Of a stretch of 27,743 nucleotides of DNA, positions 11,936-27,573 are shown piece by piece. Where the stretch lies: positions 1 to 27,743 of IMG/VR virus record IMGVR_UViG_3300025133_000493. One strand, 5' to 3'. Source of the stretch: a virus. Both the position numbers and the translations under genes were made by a program. The notes under the pieces were generated by a model. The model did no database searches. It was not told the DNA's origin and saw only the letters and a list, made by a program, of their open reading frames with translations. The first letter of the stretch is position 1, and the number at the start of each line of letters is the position of its first letter.

Positions 11936-13300
11936 ATGCGGAAAATGAAAACAAGAAACGGACTATTTATAGCAGGTGGCCTGGTGTTCCTGGTTATGGT
12001 GGCAGCCAGTGCGCAGCGCATGATCGAATCGCTGGATATTGGTGGTGGCTATGGTGCCACTGGCATATCGCTGGAATCTGATGGCGATACCCTGGCCAAT
12101 GGAAACCACACCATAGATGGCGATCTGGTATTAAAAGAAAAAGCAGATCACAGCAGCACACCAGCTGCTGGCTATGGTTATATATGGGTTAAAAACGATG
12201 CGCCAACGGTCGTAAAGTATACCGACGATACAGGCGTGGATATTACACTGGGCACTGGTAGTGGCAGTGTGTCCAGTGTGAATGGATACACAGGCACCGT
12301 GGTGCTGGATCCAGATGATTTAGACGATACCAGCAGCACAGCCAAGTGGAATCAAAGCCACACAGGCGATGTAACAGGGGCCACAGCCCTGGCCATCGCC
12401 AATGGCGCAGTGGATATAGCGCACCACAGCGCTACAGGCACTGCTGATGCCACCACATTTTATCGAGGTGATAATGTGTGGGCTACACCAGCAGGTGGTG
12501 GCGATATGACACTGGCAGGATCTGGCCAAAATGTTACAGGAGATATAGCATTCGATGATGGTGGATTAATTATAAATGGTGCCACATCTGGCAGTACCAC
12601 AATTAAAGCAGCTGCTGTGGCTGGTACGACTATAGCCACATTTCAGGGTTCCACAGGCACCGTGGCATGGTCGGCAGACATACCAGCAAACACGGATTCC
12701 CTAGCAGAGGGTAGCACCAATCGGTATGTGACCACAGCAGACGAAACCACGCTTGGTTATATCACCATCACAGCTGCTGCCAATATCGACAGCATGATCA
12801 CAGATATAGCAGCCAATACGGCAAAGACAGGGAACGCCACACACACAGGCGATGTGACCGGGGCCACGGCCCTGGCCATTGCCAATGGGGCAGTGGATAT
12901 AGCACACCACAGCGCTACAGGCACTGCCGATGCCACCACATTTTATCGAGGTGATAATGTGTGGGCTACACCAGCCTCTGATAGAAGCGGCGAGGCGCTG
13001 ACCGACGCGGCCACAGTAGCAGTGGACAGTGATTATAATTTCGGCACAGTAACACTGGCCGGAAATCGCACATTGGGATCGCCATCTGGTACGCCAGTAG
13101 ATGGTCAATTATACGAATTGATCGCCATCCAGGATGGCACTGGCAGCAGGACACTGGCATACCATGCCGACTATGAATTTTCCACAGGGCTGGTGGAGCC
13201 AACATTAACCACCACCGCAGGCGCAGAGGATGTGCTATTGTTCCGCTATAGTAGCAGCGCCGCAAAGTGGCGTTTGTATGCGATCGTGCAGGGGTTTTAG
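11936..13300 (+). CDS. Tail fibre-like repeat protein with an N-terminal signal/anchor segment
   Basis: 454 residues. The first 26 (MRKMKTRNGLFIAGGLVFLV, then MVAASA) form a textbook export signal or membrane anchor, unusual for a virion fibre; an internal ATG at 11945 keeps the same hydrophobic core. The body is Gly/Ala/Thr/Asp-rich and beta-repetitive, with two near-identical 45-residue units (HTGDVTGATALAIANGAVDI ... TFYRGDNVWATPA) at 12359-12492 and 12842-12975. A FYRGDNVWATP motif is common in trimeric phage fibres. The last ~110 residues (DSDYNFGTVTLAGNRTLGSP ... WRLYAIVQGF) are a compact tip domain. The call as fibre is good; whether the signal is used is unknown. Confidence 0.7.
   Translation: MRKMKTRNGLFIAGGLVFLVMVAASAQRMIESLDIGGGYGATGISLESDGDTLANGNHTIDGDLVLKEKADHSSTPAAGYGYIWVKNDAPTVVKYTDDTGVDITLGTGSGSVSSVNGYTGTVVLDPDDLDDTSSTAKWNQSHTGDVTGATALAIANGAVDIAHHSATGTADATTFYRGDNVWATPAGGGDMTLAGSGQNVTGDIAFDDGGLIINGATSGSTTIKAAAVAGTTIATFQGSTGTVAWSADIPANTDSLAEGSTNRYVTTADETTLGYITITAAANIDSMITDIAANTAKTGNATHTGDVTGATALAIANGAVDIAHHSATGTADATTFYRGDNVWATPASDRSGEALTDAATVAVDSDYNFGTVTLAGNRTLGSPSGTPVDGQLYELIAIQDGTGSRTLAYHADYEFSTGLVEPTLTTTAGAEDVLLFRYSSSAAKWRLYAIVQGF
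12359..12492 (+). repeat. Fibre repeat unit 1 (134 bp)
   Basis: First copy of a direct repeat within the fibre gene, starting CACACAGGCGATGT and ending GGGCTACACCAGC. It differs from copy 2 at about seven positions that all fall in third codon positions and keep the protein identical. Confidence 0.9.
12842..12975 (+). repeat. Fibre repeat unit 2 (134 bp)
   Basis: Second copy, 483 bp downstream of the first and in the same reading phase, encoding the same 45 residues. The spacing between copies carries unrelated beta-rich fibre sequence. Confidence 0.9.
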
Positions 13301-16578: not shown

Positions 16579-16593
16579 TTTGATGATTTTTAC

Positions 16594-16653
16594 AAGGCCC
16601 GGCGTGGCCTGGCATGGCCCGGCTTGGCATGGCCCGGCAGGGCAGGGCAAGGC
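16594..16653 (+). repeat. (NNGGC)12 pentamer tract 1
   Basis: Twelve uninterrupted 5-bp units in which the last three bases are always GGC while the first two vary (AA, CC, GT, CT, AT, TT, AG occur). It is preceded by TTTTTAC and followed by AAGGAAACAA, lies between the Xre gene and the gene at 16682, and is matched in length and flanks by the tract at 17257. Confidence 0.92.
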
Positions 16654-16681
16654 AAGGAAACAACAAAGGAGAAGAGAAAAG

Positions 16682-17248: not shown

Positions 17249-17256
17249 TTTTTTAC

Positions 17257-17316
17257 ATGGCACGGCTTGGCCAGGCGAGGCGCGGCAGGGCTTGGCAAGG
17301 CATGGCAGGGCAAGGC
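17257..17316 (+). repeat. (NNGGC)12 pentamer tract 2
   Basis: Again exactly twelve units of NNGGC, with the same flanks as tract 1 (TTTTTAC before, AAGGAAACAA after) but a different series of variable dinucleotides. It starts 9 bp after the stop of the previous gene and ends 24 bp before the ATG at 17341. Confidence 0.92.
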
Positions 17317-17340
17317 AAGGAAACAAAGAAAGGAAAAAGC

Positions 17341-23050: not shown

Positions 23051-23594
23051 TATAAAGAGCTTACCCACTGTCTATGGCGGCATACGATACAGATCCAGGC
23101 TGGAAGCACGCTGGGCCGTTTTCCTGGACTATATGGACATAGATTTTATCTACGAACCAGAAGGCTACACGGATGGCAAGGTGTGCTATTTGCCAGATTT
23201 CTGGCTGCCAGCGCACGAGCTATTTATTGAAATAAAACCTGGGCCGCTAAGTGATGCGGAGGAAGCAAAAGCAAAAATGGTGGTGGAGGGCACAGGGCAC
23301 AGGCTGCTGGCGCTAATAGGTTTTCCAATGGAGCCAATACAATTTATGGCCGATATGAAACGCACCAATTTATACGGACGGTTCGAGCGCGATGGCAAAA
23401 CGCGCTACAGAATGTCGTATTGTTCTTATTTTGTGCAATGTGGCTGTAGTCGTGTCGATATAAGGGATTATTCAGTGGAACCAGATTGGTTAACGTGTGA
23501 CTGTGATGATTTTCGGCCAAACTTTTTAAACCTTAATATGGCTGCACAAAAGGCCAGATCATTCCAATTTGTTGGTGGGGTGGCCAATGGCTGA
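23043..23594 (+). CDS. PD-(D/E)XK-fold nuclease
   Basis: 183 residues from ATG 23043, which overlaps the helicase stop; the frame is open to 22977. The fold is shown by YRSRLEARWAVFLDYMDIDF (Glu21 in the first helix), CYLPDFWLPAHELFIEIKPG with Asp52 and the E63-x-K65 pair, and YEPEGY between them. This TnsA/RecB-like arrangement is common in phage endonucleases. A Cys-containing C-terminal part (YFVQCGCSRVDI, LTCDCDDF) could bind a metal. Likely a structure-specific or recombination nuclease working with the adjacent helicase. Confidence 0.8.
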   Translation: MANIKSLPTVYGGIRYRSRLEARWAVFLDYMDIDFIYEPEGYTDGKVCYLPDFWLPAHELFIEIKPGPLSDAEEAKAKMVVEGTGHRLLALIGFPMEPIQFMADMKRTNLYGRFERDGKTRYRMSYCSYFVQCGCSRVDIRDYSVEPDWLTCDCDDFRPNFLNLNMAAQKARSFQFVGGVANG

Positions 23595-25992
23595 ATTACC
23601 AGAGCTATTAGAGGCCATCGATCCATCCAGGGTTAGCTATGAAGAGTGGACACAGATCGGAATGGCCACAATCGATAATGGTGGCAGTGTGGCAGACTGG
23701 GATCAGTGGTCTGCGAGAGATCCAGAGCGATACCAGGCTGGGCAGTGTGAAAGGAAAGCCAAATCATTTACCGGCAGCGCCACACCAGTTGGCCTGGGCA
23801 CCATCGCACAGATCGCCAAACGCCATGGATGGATTCCAGCACAGCACAGCGCAGGCCATGCATTGGATTGGAACGCCACCATAGACACCACCAAGCTGCT
23901 ATCTTTAGAAGTGGAGGATCCTGGCTGGGTGGAACCAATCGATGTGGTGCCACCAGACAGCTGGGACCCAATACAGCAGCTTATAAAGTATCTAAACACT
24001 CTGTTTTCCTCTGAGGAATACGTGGGATATGTAACCGAGTCATACGAATCTGATGGCCGATCACTGCCAAAGCGTGGCAGTTATTCCAGGACATGTGGCG
24101 AACTAATCCAGAACCTCGAGAAGTATGGCCAGATAGATATGGCACTGGGCACACCTGATCCAGATGTAGGGGCGTGGATCCGATTTAATCCACTGGATGG
24201 AAAAGGCGTAAAGGATACCAACGTTACTGCGCACCGCTATGCGCTCATTGAATCAGACACACTGCCAATTGATCGGCAGGCTGGCATCTACAAAGCCATG
24301 GAATTACCCATTGCAGCGCTGGTGCACAGTGGTGGCAAATCACTGCACGCCATTGTGCGCATCGATGCAGCCAGCAAAGAAGAATACCGGCAGCGGGTTA
24401 ATTACCTGCACAAAGTGTGCGCTGCCAACCATCTGGAAATAGATACACAAAACAAAAATCCATCCAGGTTATCCAGGATGCCAGGCGTTATGCGCAAGGG
24501 CCAGAAACAGTTTCTGGTGGATGTAAACCAGGGCCATAGCACTTGGGACGAGTGGGTGGAATATGTCGAAGATAAAAACGACAACCTGCCACCATTTACA
24601 CAGTTTGCGGATATATTCCACGATCTACCACCACTGGCCACCCCGTTAATTGATGGCATTCTGCGCGAGGGGCACAAAATGCTGTTGGCTGGGCCATCCA
24701 AAGCTGGCAAATCATTTATGCTGCTACAGCTGGCTGTGGCCGTGGCAGAGGGCAAAAGCTGGCTGGGCTGGCAGTGCAGACAGGGCCGCGTGCTATACGT
24801 CAACCTGGAAGTGGATGCATCCAGCTGCGCGCATCGAATCCGCGATCTGTATGACAAACGCGGGTGGGCACCAGATGCCACAAAAAACCTGGATGTGTGG
24901 AATCTGCGAGGAAAAGCAGCGCCATTGGATGTGCTGGCACCAAAACTAATAAACAGGGCAAAGGATAAGCAATACAAGGTAATTATCATCGATCCAATTT
25001 ACAAGGTAATTACAGGCGATGAAAACGCAGCAGATAAGATGGCGCACTTTTGCAACCAATTCGACAAAATTTGTGCAGAATTAGAATGCGCCGTAGTCTA
25101 CTGCCACCACCACAGCAAAGGCGCACAAGGTGCCAAGGAGGCCAAAGACAGGGCCAGTGGCAGTGGCGTATTTGCACGGGATCCAGATGCGCAACTGGAT
25201 GTGGTGCAATTGATGGTGCCAGAGGATGCCAGGAAAGCGATGGCAGATAGGGTTATGTGCCAGGCCATCGTGGCAGCAGCAGAGCGCCACACACCAGACT
25301 GGAGCGATAAACTGGGCCAAGATGATGTGCTGGTACTGGAAAAGGTGACAGAGGCAGCCAGGGCACTGCTGGGCAGCAGCCACCCAGCCTGGCAGCAGAT
25401 AAACCAGCTGCGCACCGAATTGGGATACACCACAGGCTGGCGCGTGGAATTAACACTGCGAGAATTCGCACCACAGCCACCCATAGCGTTCTGGTTTCGC
25501 CATCCAATACACACCACAGAGGGCGCAGACTTCCTGGCCAGTTGTAAAGCCAATGGCGAAGTACCACCCTGGGAATTAGAGCGCCAGGAGCGCCAGGAAA
25601 AGAAAAAGAAAGATTTCGACAAGATCGCCAGAGATATTGGATTCCACATTACTGGTGATCGCATGGATCTGGATGAATTGGCTGGGCTGCTGGGCCAGAC
25701 ACCGCGGCAGGTAAAGGGGTGGGTGAAGGATTCCAGCACGCACGAAAATGTGGCATTTCCAGACAAGCGGGAAGGCATAACCGTTTGCTTAAAAGGCCAA
25801 AAGCAGCTGGTTTTGAATGATTACTATTTCCGAAGGCTGGCTGATAGTGATGGCAAGTTAACTGTGGAATCCATCAAAAAAGACACCGGCAGGAAAACAG
25901 GCAGCACCATATTGGATTGGTTCCGTGGCGATCTGGCCAGCCTGTATACCATCGATGGCAATACCATTACCCAAAACAGAAAGGATCAATAA
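23587..25992 (+). CDS. Primase-helicase: AEP-type primase fused to a RepA/DnaB-like ATPase
   Basis: 801 residues from ATG 23587, overlapping the previous stop. Residues 10-85 look like a PriCT_2-type domain (SYEEWTQIGMA, WDQWS). About 190-315 carries archaeo-eukaryotic primase motifs: YALIESD (I), GGKSLHAIV (II, S-x-H) and LEIDTQNKNPSRLSRMPGV (III). About 355-550 is a RepA/AAA_25 helicase: Walker A GPSKAGKS (369-376), Walker B KVIIIDPIY (464-472) and CAVVYCHHHSKGA. The C-terminal 180 residues hold a charged linker and winged-helix-like segments. It is the likely replisome core. Confidence 0.88.
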   Translation: MAELPELLEAIDPSRVSYEEWTQIGMATIDNGGSVADWDQWSARDPERYQAGQCERKAKSFTGSATPVGLGTIAQIAKRHGWIPAQHSAGHALDWNATIDTTKLLSLEVEDPGWVEPIDVVPPDSWDPIQQLIKYLNTLFSSEEYVGYVTESYESDGRSLPKRGSYSRTCGELIQNLEKYGQIDMALGTPDPDVGAWIRFNPLDGKGVKDTNVTAHRYALIESDTLPIDRQAGIYKAMELPIAALVHSGGKSLHAIVRIDAASKEEYRQRVNYLHKVCAANHLEIDTQNKNPSRLSRMPGVMRKGQKQFLVDVNQGHSTWDEWVEYVEDKNDNLPPFTQFADIFHDLPPLATPLIDGILREGHKMLLAGPSKAGKSFMLLQLAVAVAEGKSWLGWQCRQGRVLYVNLEVDASSCAHRIRDLYDKRGWAPDATKNLDVWNLRGKAAPLDVLAPKLINRAKDKQYKVIIIDPIYKVITGDENAADKMAHFCNQFDKICAELECAVVYCHHHSKGAQGAKEAKDRASGSGVFARDPDAQLDVVQLMVPEDARKAMADRVMCQAIVAAAERHTPDWSDKLGQDDVLVLEKVTEAARALLGSSHPAWQQINQLRTELGYTTGWRVELTLREFAPQPPIAFWFRHPIHTTEGADFLASCKANGEVPPWELERQERQEKKKKDFDKIARDIGFHITGDRMDLDELAGLLGQTPRQVKGWVKDSSTHENVAFPDKREGITVCLKGQKQLVLNDYYFRRLADSDGKLTVESIKKDTGRKTGSTILDWFRGDLASLYTIDGNTITQNRKDQ

Positions 25993-27038
25993 TGTGGACA
26001 TGTTGCACTTATTTGCAGGCGCAGGGGGGGGGATCCTTGGATCCAACCTTGATGGCCACAGAACTATCGGCGCTGTCGAGATCGAAGAGTATCCCAGAAA
26101 AATACTACTGGCCCGGCAGCTTGACGGATCATTACCTGGTTTCCCTATTTGGAACGACGTTACCACGTTCCGAAGCGACAACCCAGACACAGCCAATTAC
26201 ATCGCCAGACTGCGCGCACACAAAAACTTGTGCATCGCGGGCGGGTTCCCATGCCAAGACATTAGCGCCGCTGGAAAAGGCGCAGGAATCACAGGAGAGC
26301 GTAGCGGGCTATGGTCTGAGTTTTCCCGCATCATCAGCGAGATACGACCGCGACACGTCTTCCTGGAGAATTCACCCTTGCTTGTTTCCAGAGGACTCGA
26401 TGTCGTGCTTAGTGACCTTGCCGAAATGGGGTACCATGCGGAGTGGGGAATTGTCGGAGCGCACCACGCCGGAGGAAGTCACAAACGGGATCGGATCTGG
26501 CTCTTGGCCCACGCCAATGTGTGATGGGGGTTTCAAATCAGAGGGGCAGGTGGATAAGTTAGCCCAAAACAATATTACATTTGGCGAGTTTCGTGGCATG
26601 TGTTATCGAGCCAGCGAAACACACAAAAAAGCAGCCTGGCCTACACCATGCGCTAGGGATTGGAAGGATACCCGGGGTATGGCGCACAGCGCTACCAATC
26701 CAGATGGCACACATAGAGATAGAACCGATTTGTTACCCACGCGAATATACTCCCAAACGTCCAAAGAGGTGTCTGGCACATTAAACCCCGATTGGGTAGA
26801 GTGGCTAATGGGTTGGCCCGTGGGCTGGACACAGCTGGAGCCACTGCCAGTGGCAGATTATCCAGCAGTTGGCCAGTGGAGCGAGGACCCTGCAATATTA
26901 GGAGCGCTTGACAGGGTAACACCACCACAGCCAGCCAGGAGGCCCAGGCTAAAGTGTATTGGCAATGGCCAAGTGCCAGCTGCTGCCAGCCTGGCGTGGA
27001 ACGTGCTAAATAGAATGGCCATGGAAAGCGCACCATGA
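25992..27038 (+). CDS. Methyltransferase partner / C-terminal half, overlapping in another frame
   Basis: This frame is open from inside the previous gene; the first start beside the ribosome-binding site is ATG 25992, giving 348 residues, though the true start may lie further in. Residues from about 74 onward (CAHTKTCASRAG, GLSFPASSARYDRDTSSWRI, LVTLPKWGTMRSGELSERTT, SGSWPTPMCDGG) match methyltransferase-associated phage proteins I recall, while the same bases encode motifs IV-VIII in the other frame. Past 26524 it carries LNPDWVEWLMGWPVGWT and ends RLKCIGNGQVPAAASLAWNV, equivalent to motif X. It probably supplies target recognition and completes the enzyme. The stop overlaps the RusA start (ATGA). 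Confidence 0.7.
   Translation: MWTCCTYLQAQGGGSLDPTLMATELSALSRSKSIPEKYYWPGSLTDHYLVSLFGTTLPRSEATTQTQPITSPDCAHTKTCASRAGSHAKTLAPLEKAQESQESVAGYGLSFPASSARYDRDTSSWRIHPCLFPEDSMSCLVTLPKWGTMRSGELSERTTPEEVTNGIGSGSWPTPMCDGGFKSEGQVDKLAQNNITFGEFRGMCYRASETHKKAAWPTPCARDWKDTRGMAHSATNPDGTHRDRTDLLPTRIYSQTSKEVSGTLNPDWVEWLMGWPVGWTQLEPLPVADYPAVGQWSEDPAILGALDRVTPPQPARRPRLKCIGNGQVPAAASLAWNVLNRMAMESAP
25994..26524 (+). CDS. DNA cytosine-5 methyltransferase, motifs I-VIII
   Basis: 176 residues from GTG 25994 (ATG 26000 is also possible), preceded by AAGGA. C5-methyltransferase motifs in order: I LHLFAGAGGG (SAM binding), IV GGFPCQDIS with catalytic Cys87, VI HVFLENS (E125-N126) and VIII HHAGGSHKRDRIWLLAHA, after which the frame stops. 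The target recognition region and motifs IX-X are missing; motif X-like sequence lies in the +1 frame (next entry). The gene may be a natural split enzyme like M.AquI, or may need a frameshift. A G9 run at 26024-26032 encodes the Gly triplet of motif I. Confidence 0.85.
   Translation: MDMLHLFAGAGGGILGSNLDGHRTIGAVEIEEYPRKILLARQLDGSLPGFPIWNDVTTFRSDNPDTANYIARLRAHKNLCIAGGFPCQDISAAGKGAGITGERSGLWSEFSRIISEIRPRHVFLENSPLLVSRGLDVVLSDLAEMGYHAEWGIVGAHHAGGSHKRDRIWLLAHANV
26024..26032 (+). repeat. G9 homopolymer in the methyltransferase gene
   Basis: Nine consecutive G encode Gly-Gly-Gly of motif I. Such runs change length easily. Losing one G would join the methyltransferase start to the partner frame; gaining one would join ATG 25992 to the methyltransferase frame. 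Confidence 0.9.
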
Positions 27039-27430
27039 TCGAATTTTTTATGGCCATGGAGCCACCAACAGCCACAGCACAGATGCACCAGGTGCAATGC
27101 AGGAATGGTAGACCAATCTTTTACGATCCACCAAGGGTTAGAGCCATGAAGGCAAAGCTATACGCTGCGCTGCTGCCACACAGGCCAGATGCACCAATGG
27201 ATGGGCCGCTGAGACTAACCACCAAGTGGATCTGGCACAATAAAGCCAGGAACGAAAACAGATACAAACCGACAAAACCAGACACCGACAACCTGGTCAA
27301 GGCACTAAAGGATTTAATGGAAACCGCTGGCTATTTCCGCGACGATGCGCAAGTTTGTAGCGAGATAATCGAGAAATTCTATGGCAGGCCAGCTGGCATC
27401 TACATCAAGCTGGAGGCCATCGAAACATGA
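27035..27430 (+). CDS. rusA: RusA-like Holliday junction resolvase
   Basis: 131 residues, usual length for RusA, overlapping the previous stop (ATGA). Catalytic aspartates are visible: KPDTDNLVKALKDLM (D83, D85) and FRDDAQVCSEIIEKFYG (D103, D104), with the family start PTATAQMHQVQCRNGRPIFY and basic patches (KWIWHNKARNENRYKPTK) for junction DNA. It resolves branched recombination or replication intermediates before packaging. It is the last gene of the early operon; two terminators follow. Confidence 0.9.
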   Translation: MIEFFMAMEPPTATAQMHQVQCRNGRPIFYDPPRVRAMKAKLYAALLPHRPDAPMDGPLRLTTKWIWHNKARNENRYKPTKPDTDNLVKALKDLMETAGYFRDDAQVCSEIIEKFYGRPAGIYIKLEAIET

Positions 27431-27473: not shown

Positions 27474-27515
27474 GGAAAATAAATACCCGCATGCGGGTCT
27501 GTTTTATTTTTTTTT
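27474..27515. terminator. Bidirectional terminator 1 (palindrome with A and T tracts)
   Basis: Perfect palindrome ACCCGCATGCGGGT at 27485-27498, flanked on the left by AAAATAAA and on the right by CTG then TTTTATTTT, which pair to extend the stem. T tracts on both strands suggest termination in both directions. Confidence 0.75.
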
Positions 27516-27532
27516 GCGATGGGCCGAAAAAC

Positions 27533-27573
27533 GAAAAAAAAATAACCGCATGCGGGTCTGTTTTATTTTTTTT
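27533..27573. terminator. Bidirectional terminator 2, near copy of terminator 1
   Basis: CCGCATGCGGGT followed by CTGTTTTATTTTTTTT, the same as terminator 1 with one base change at the left arm (AACCGC instead of ACCCGC), placed exactly 60 bp downstream. An A tract lies on its left side. Confidence 0.75.

Follow-up and report, generated by a model that had tools for sequence, protein, structure and literature searches.

Probable dual coding of a two-subunit C5 cytosine DNA methyltransferase in a viral genome and its relatives

The 27.7-kb virus record IMGVR_UViG_3300025133_000493 of IMG/VR, analysed here over its whole length of 27,743 nucleotides (hereafter the window), contains two long reading frames on the same strand, alpha and beta, which start almost together and lie one frame apart, beta being in the +1 frame relative to alpha. 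Judging from its sequence and from its homologues, this locus very probably encodes a heterodimeric C5 cytosine DNA methyltransferase whose two genes are dual-coded, the second subunit sharing about 530 nt of DNA with the first in a shifted frame. At the level of sequence comparison, both frames are shown to be under selection across the family of related loci, and tests on homologues and synonymous sites support the proposal, made in a first-pass annotation of this DNA, that the +1 arrangement is genuine dual coding of a split C5 enzyme and not a sequencing frameshift. The parts of the locus are the following:

25994-26524, plus strand: alpha subunit, 176 amino acids, predicted C5 methyltransferase large domain with motifs I, IV, VI and VIII; GTG start
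26000, plus strand: alternative ATG start of alpha
26012-26032, plus strand: alpha motif I, FAGAGGG
26240-26257, plus strand: alpha motif IV, GGFPCQ
26366-26374, plus strand: alpha motif VI, ENS
26480-26497, plus strand: alpha motif VIII, HKRDRI
26522-26524, plus strand: alpha stop TGA, shortly past motif VIII
25992-27038, plus strand: predicted beta subunit, 348 amino acids, with a dual-coded N-terminal region (25992-26524), a target-recognition region and motifs IX and X; ATG start
26340-26369, plus strand: beta RYDRDTSSWR over alpha RPRHVFLEN (26345-26371), requiring Arg CGA and a Leu or Val codon ending in TG
26418-26453, plus strand: beta LPKWGTMRSGEL over alpha DLAEMGYHAEWG, requiring Ala GCC and Gly GGG
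26522-26780, plus strand: variable region, putative target-recognition domain, in the beta frame only
26781-26831, plus strand: beta motif IX region, LNPDWVEWLMGWPVGWT, near-invariant across 66 beta sequences
26961-26978, plus strand: beta motif X, GNGQVP (X is carried by alpha in most relatives)

The C5 hallmarks I (FxGxGG), IV (PCQ), VI (ENx) and VIII (RxR) are all found in alpha, whose match to Pfam PF00145 (E=1.8e-28) covers only positions 1-162 of 324, i.e., the first half of the profile; alpha also matches phrog_363 in PHROGs (E=3e-49), and the alpha profile finds M.HhaI and M.HaeIII. Motifs IX and X and the variable recognition region of a C5 enzyme are present in the window, but in the +1 frame, where beta corresponds to phrog_1008 ('DNA methyltransferase', E=9.7e-25) and also has IGSGSWPTP, after LPKWGTMRSGEL and before the motif IX region. 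PHROGs alone know this second protein: it has no match in Pfam or NCBIfam and no PADLOC model, and a PDB sequence search with the beta profile gave no match either. The partition proposed at first pass, with motifs I-VIII in one frame at 25994-26524 and the C-terminal part in the +1 frame up to 27038, is borne out by the motif positions and PF00145 for the former, and by phrog_1008, the motif IX region and GNGQVP for the latter; the +1 frame, described as open back to 25992, does have its own ATG there but is free of stops further upstream, to 25851.

Does an open +1 frame reflect more than chance, or more than an echo of the conservation of alpha? Shifting the frame of a conserved gene by one base gives a translation that looks conserved as well, and all tests therefore used alpha-synonymous codon permutations as the null. 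The +1 frame of the window has no stop in 176 codons, against an average of 4.1 in permutations of alpha's own codons and 7.7 with genome codon usage, stop-free permutations making up 0.2% and 0.01%, respectively. Scored with a beta profile built with the window excluded, the real +1 translation reaches 162 bits, compared with 110 +/- 10 for the permutations (n=2000, maximum 146.5; z = 5.1). Five annotated single-chain enzymes from Streptococcus, Weissella, Bacillus and Vibrio phages, used as controls, have 4-11 stops in this frame; viral contigs were also scanned for single-chain relatives that could serve as a synonymous-site control, and none was found.

The locus is not a lone case, since it is one of at least 230. 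In six phages (Acinetobacter ABMM1, Salmonella S9-5, Pseudomonas phPA-G, Stenotrophomonas SOVA965, Manatee Spring phage and Vibrio ZQ26), both frames are open over 640-900 nt, and nested starts of the ATGAATGAG kind occur in five; in none of the six are both frames annotated. No fewer than 267 loci (at least 231 distinct) combine a full alpha with motifs I-VIII and, over the same bases, a +1 frame that matches beta; they come from phages, from many phyla of bacteria and from two archaeal bins, complete isolate genomes included. Over alpha columns 2-165, corresponding to motifs I-VIII, the +1 frame is without a stop in 211 of the 231 distinct loci, where about 5 are expected under permutation, a null that also counts alpha column 1, the site of the normal TGA within ATGAATGAG. 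Nested starts in the wider family take the form (A/G/T)TGAATGAG; in the window, the ATGTG starts behind a single AAAGGA reported at first pass are present, and its AATGTGGAC start recurs in two distant relatives (loci L148 and L149).

Silent sites and codon positions bear directly on selection in the second frame. The average fourfold-degenerate site of alpha differs in 51.5% of the comparisons made at 60-80% pairwise identity, and near-fixed among such sites are Arg CGA (181/194), Val GTG (157/157), Ala GCC (188/190) and Gly GGG (223/227), which in +1 encode, in that order, the Asp in RYD, the Trp in SSW, the Pro preceding WG and the Gly within WG itself; the window codons at these positions, CGA, CTG, GCC and GGG, match. 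In every block of motifs I-VIII, beta columns have lower entropy than the alpha-synonymous null, the difference being greatest at RYDPDTSSWKT and SSVTWPKWGMMRNGE, and substitutions across these motifs are distributed by alpha codon position as 28.5/12/59%, versus 19/10/72% in flanking genes. The earlier impression that both frames look like conserved protein in the shared bases is upheld by these homologue and synonymous-site tests, with the correction that RYDxDTSSWR is the +1 reading of alpha RPRxVFLEN with particular codons. In the variable region, substitutions between 21 close pairs fall by alpha codon position as 68/18/14%, and amino-acid differences amount to 7.5% in beta and 21% in alpha; beta is thus the conserved frame there, and target recognition therefore most likely belongs to it.

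A broken gene, or a one-base sequencing or assembly error after motif VIII, would leave an upstream +1 frame open through chance and the shadow of a conserved protein; shuffled alpha genes do retain part of the beta resemblance, and fused homologues exist. This explanation nevertheless appears extremely unlikely, as the same +1 arrangement is found in hundreds of independent records, complete isolate genomes among them, silent codons are invariant in the family, and the window itself has a z of about 5 with no stop.

Some loci of the family are disrupted in one frame or in both. An in-frame alpha TGA replaces the family Arg CGA (column 108) at L019:1154-1156 and L056:3246-3248 and is silent in beta, the CGA codon that beta demands being one transition from an alpha stop. 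Alpha has a TAA in L010, and the alpha frames of L216 and L223 are also broken. In an E. coli prophage (L298:5001-5762), annotated in RefSeq as a pseudogene with an internal stop, both frames are stopped at about the same place, and L275:2729-3466 has an HNH-endonuclease-like insertion in alpha before motif IV, with frame changes after it and a broken beta frame upstream.

One locus from a Spirochaetaceae bin (L277) provides a separate line of evidence. Its alpha frame is interrupted within motif IV, between PC and Q, by a 321-codon intein (L277:4031-4993) identified by Pfam Hint_2 and an intein splicing domain. The beta frame has no stop across the 321 intein codons, compared with 29 in the third frame, and not one of 20,000 permutations is free of stops; beta would therefore be read through from upstream, a pattern that is expected if its translation runs through from the nested start. 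The frames of L277 switch again past motif VIII, and an Rfam search for introns in split relatives found none. This case bears on another possibility, namely that there are two subunits but beta starts internally, only the part beyond about 26340 being of consequence and the first third of the overlap being passive. Early +1 stops with retention of the later part, in mycobacteriophage loci L290 and L291 and in Streptomyces phage phiBT1 (L134), would fit such an internal start, as would the fact that beta constraint is highest at RYD..SSW and PKWG. The first part is nevertheless stop-free too in the near family, with beta columns less variable than the null, and the conserved MSW start together with the intein favours initiation at the nested start, so that an internal start seems rather unlikely.

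The family shows two layouts. In the commoner one (201/231 loci), alpha stays open beyond the variable region and carries motif X; the beta motif IX stretch WVEWLMGxPxGWTDL and the alpha stretch VGRVAxGVPxRVDRL preceding X are then two readings of the same bases, as found by direct comparison of the frames. In the minority layout, of about 22 loci including the window, alpha ends after motif VIII and beta holds IX and X; its members include L009, L016, L026, L138, L143, L146, L148, L149, L210 and L289, and it also takes in phiBT1 and L122-L124. Distant actinobacterial forms are either fused (L126, L282 and ShiLan gp70 in L300) or have a shorter overlap (L290 and L291). Fused genes and broken +1 frames, which would speak against long dual coding, occur only in distant relatives, none being present in the near family. 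The fused loci (L300:1801-2970, L126:2242-4152 and L282:3168-5357) retain a beta-like +1 open reading frame (ORF), with YDPxTSSW in L300 and L126, and these ORFs may be relics of an ancestor whose enzyme was split. With both frames open, one indel past motif VIII could be enough to fuse the enzyme or to split it.

Could the two frames instead yield a single polypeptide, begun at the alpha start and completed after a programmed +1 ribosomal frameshift that takes translation into the beta frame near 26500? The split falls directly after motif VIII, where a frameshift fusion would need it, and L126, L282 and L300 are indeed single chains. The alpha ends of 20 loci, however, share no slippery or stop context; beta has its own conserved nested start, with codon constraint specific to this frame a long way upstream of where a shift could occur, and is kept open through the L277 intein; and alpha regains motif X in most relatives, which a single shift cannot explain. 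Frameshifting is accordingly improbable to our minds. The two-subunit interpretation can probably be extended to a large, mostly unannotated C5 family of phages, bacteria and archaea, which would be an obligate two-subunit enzyme encoded over 500-1,000 bases of two-frame DNA, with the N-terminal part of beta overprinted on the catalytic domain. The frame of the recognition region, IX and X would switch between lineages, fused, M.EcoHK31I-like and M.AquI-like forms would be interconvertible by single indels in the doubly open region, and the window would belong to the minority with motif X in beta.

Several observations weigh against the two-subunit, dual-coded reading of the window locus. Part of the +1 resemblance is automatic, alpha being conserved, and permuted sequences keep 110 bits; the score permutation test also leans upward, single-chain controls giving z = 0.4-4.0 versus 5.1 for the window. 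No close relative of the window appeared among the matches listed, the best having about 68% identity in alpha and 40% in beta, so that constraint was measured across the wider family. Some relatives are fused into a single chain or contain +1 stops within the first half (L126, L282, L300, L134 and L290), and the N-terminal part of beta is therefore not essential in every lineage. AlphaFold2 models of beta are poor (mean predicted local distance difference test scores of 54 and 56 with two alignments), residues 1-113 being unstructured and residues 116-127 and 260-348 modelled with moderate confidence; a fold search of the PDB and BFVD with the beta model was uninformative, leaving a folded N-terminal domain unsupported.

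Expression of both subunits would depend on signals at the junction with the upstream gene, listed here with the neighbouring genes:

25980-25985, plus strand: AAAGGA, likely ribosome-binding site common to both frames (an assignment by position), 6 nt before the beta ATG and 8 nt before the alpha GTG
25990-25996, plus strand: TAATGTG, comprising the primase/helicase stop TAA (25990-25992), the beta ATG (25992-25994) and the alpha GTG (25994-25996), neighbours sharing one base
23569-25992, plus strand: upstream DNA primase/helicase gene (phrog_2597, E=1.2e-286), whose stop overlaps the beta start
27035-27430, plus strand: downstream RusA Holliday-junction resolvase gene (PF05866, E=1.1e-23), whose start overlaps the beta end

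Ribosomes loaded at the single AAAGGA may start either on ATG 25992 (beta) or on GTG 25994 or ATG 26000 (alpha), initiation probably being coupled to the end of the primase gene. Alpha would provide the S-adenosylmethionine pocket and the catalytic PCQ, and beta DNA-target recognition and the elements completing the fold; the N-terminal part of beta that shares its DNA with alpha probably binds that subunit or stabilises it, at a guess, and either half alone should not methylate. When known C5 enzymes are divided between motif VIII and the recognition domain, their parts complement one another well (PMC3404938, PMC5944983), which was counted in favour of two subunits. No obvious partner endonuclease was seen among the neighbouring genes examined, and searches of plasmid and E. 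coli collections for an adjoining restriction enzyme returned only prophage-like contexts; because no such partner was found in the genes examined, the enzyme probably modifies the DNA of the phage itself as protection from host restriction. On the 3' side of the RusA gene, CCGCATGCGGGTCTGTTTTATTTTTTTT occurs as two 39-nt copies, 59 nt apart (27476-27573), which resemble tandem intrinsic terminators.

How does this arrangement compare with known enzymes? In M.EcoHK31I, the beta subunit is encoded in a shifted frame within the alpha gene, whereas the two genes of M.AquI reportedly show little or no dual coding. M.EcoHK31I and M.EaeI, both with YGGCCR as their site, are two-polypeptide C5 methyltransferases (Lee et al. 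1995, NAR 23:103). The two-polypeptide kind of C5 enzyme, represented by M.EcoHK31I and M.AquI, is already known. In M.EcoHK31I, a natural two-polypeptide enzyme, the larger subunit contains motifs I-VIII and X and the smaller one motif IX, and the predicted recognition domain was placed in the larger subunit (PMC3404938). Its motif layout is that of the commoner group of related loci; the family differs in having its variable region conserved in the beta frame, and the window in that its alpha stops after VIII without X, which lies in beta, and in having no endonuclease partner among the neighbour genes examined. M.AquI (CYCGRG; Karreman and de Waard 1990), also a natural split enzyme of two polypeptides (PMC3404938), has the same motif partition as the window, with I-VIII in alpha and the distal variable region and IX-X in beta; it was the precedent named at first pass, but M.EcoHK31I is the closer one. 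The sources consulted report no long dual-coding region for M.AquI, whereas the beta of the window adds about 175 residues over alpha. By its predicted products, the window joins the AquI-like partition with a long overlap.

Among phages, gp9.1 of phiBT1 is annotated 'DNA methylase may be inactive', and an unannotated downstream +1 ORF (L134:1995-3042) has the recognition region, IX and X. The pair reproduces the layout of the window, with I-VIII in alpha and LPTP..., EWLMG and GNGVVP in +1, but early +1 stops shorten its overlap. A 2025 account of ShiLan-type mycobacteriophage methylases describes, in its accessible part, out-of-frame HNH genes within insertions (PMC11855218). These methylases belong to the same wider C5 set and, as in the window, their second frame hides coding sequence; what that part of the account finds hidden there, however, is a homing endonuclease carried by an insertion, and a beta subunit is not mentioned. 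In literature searches of partial coverage, no description of such dual coding as the property of a widespread family was found. What is new is the length and breadth of the overlap, the codon-level evidence of double selection and the minority layout with motif X in beta.

Repeated words are a further feature of the window. TGGCCA occurs 86 times in positions 1-27743, versus 7 expected from base composition, a count that is as expected from its 5-mers, and TGGC/GCCA words are enriched genome-wide. The word matches YGGCCR, the sequence that M.EcoHK31I is known to recognise, and any link is putative. Its absence from 26060-26520, put forward at first pass as a sign of double constraint, was rejected as such, 0 copies against 1.4 expected being not significant, with longer gaps elsewhere. 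Two 90-nt arrays of 5-base GGCNN units, 79% alike (16587-16676 and 17250-17339), lie near the ORF starts at 16580 and 17245 and both have an A/G-rich stretch at their end. A 134-nt direct repeat, 95% identical, with its copies 483 nt apart at 12359-12492 and 12842-12975, is found in the area of a 454-amino-acid ORF.

Long same-strand dual coding is thought to be rare in double-stranded DNA phages and bacteria and is suppressed by gene finders. Here, the evidence from silent codons is unusually clear, with CGA, GTG, GCC and GGG invariant across phyla and a frame that stays open through an intein. If the proposed arrangement is true, many C5 methylases annotated as complete or 'possibly inactive', such as gp9.1 of phiBT1, would be half enzymes whose partner is unannotated, and alpha cloned alone would fail, a possible reason why such genes, when tested singly, show no activity or a relaxed one. 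The locus would then represent a tractable system for studying the route by which an overprinted protein becomes indispensable to the one that it overlies.

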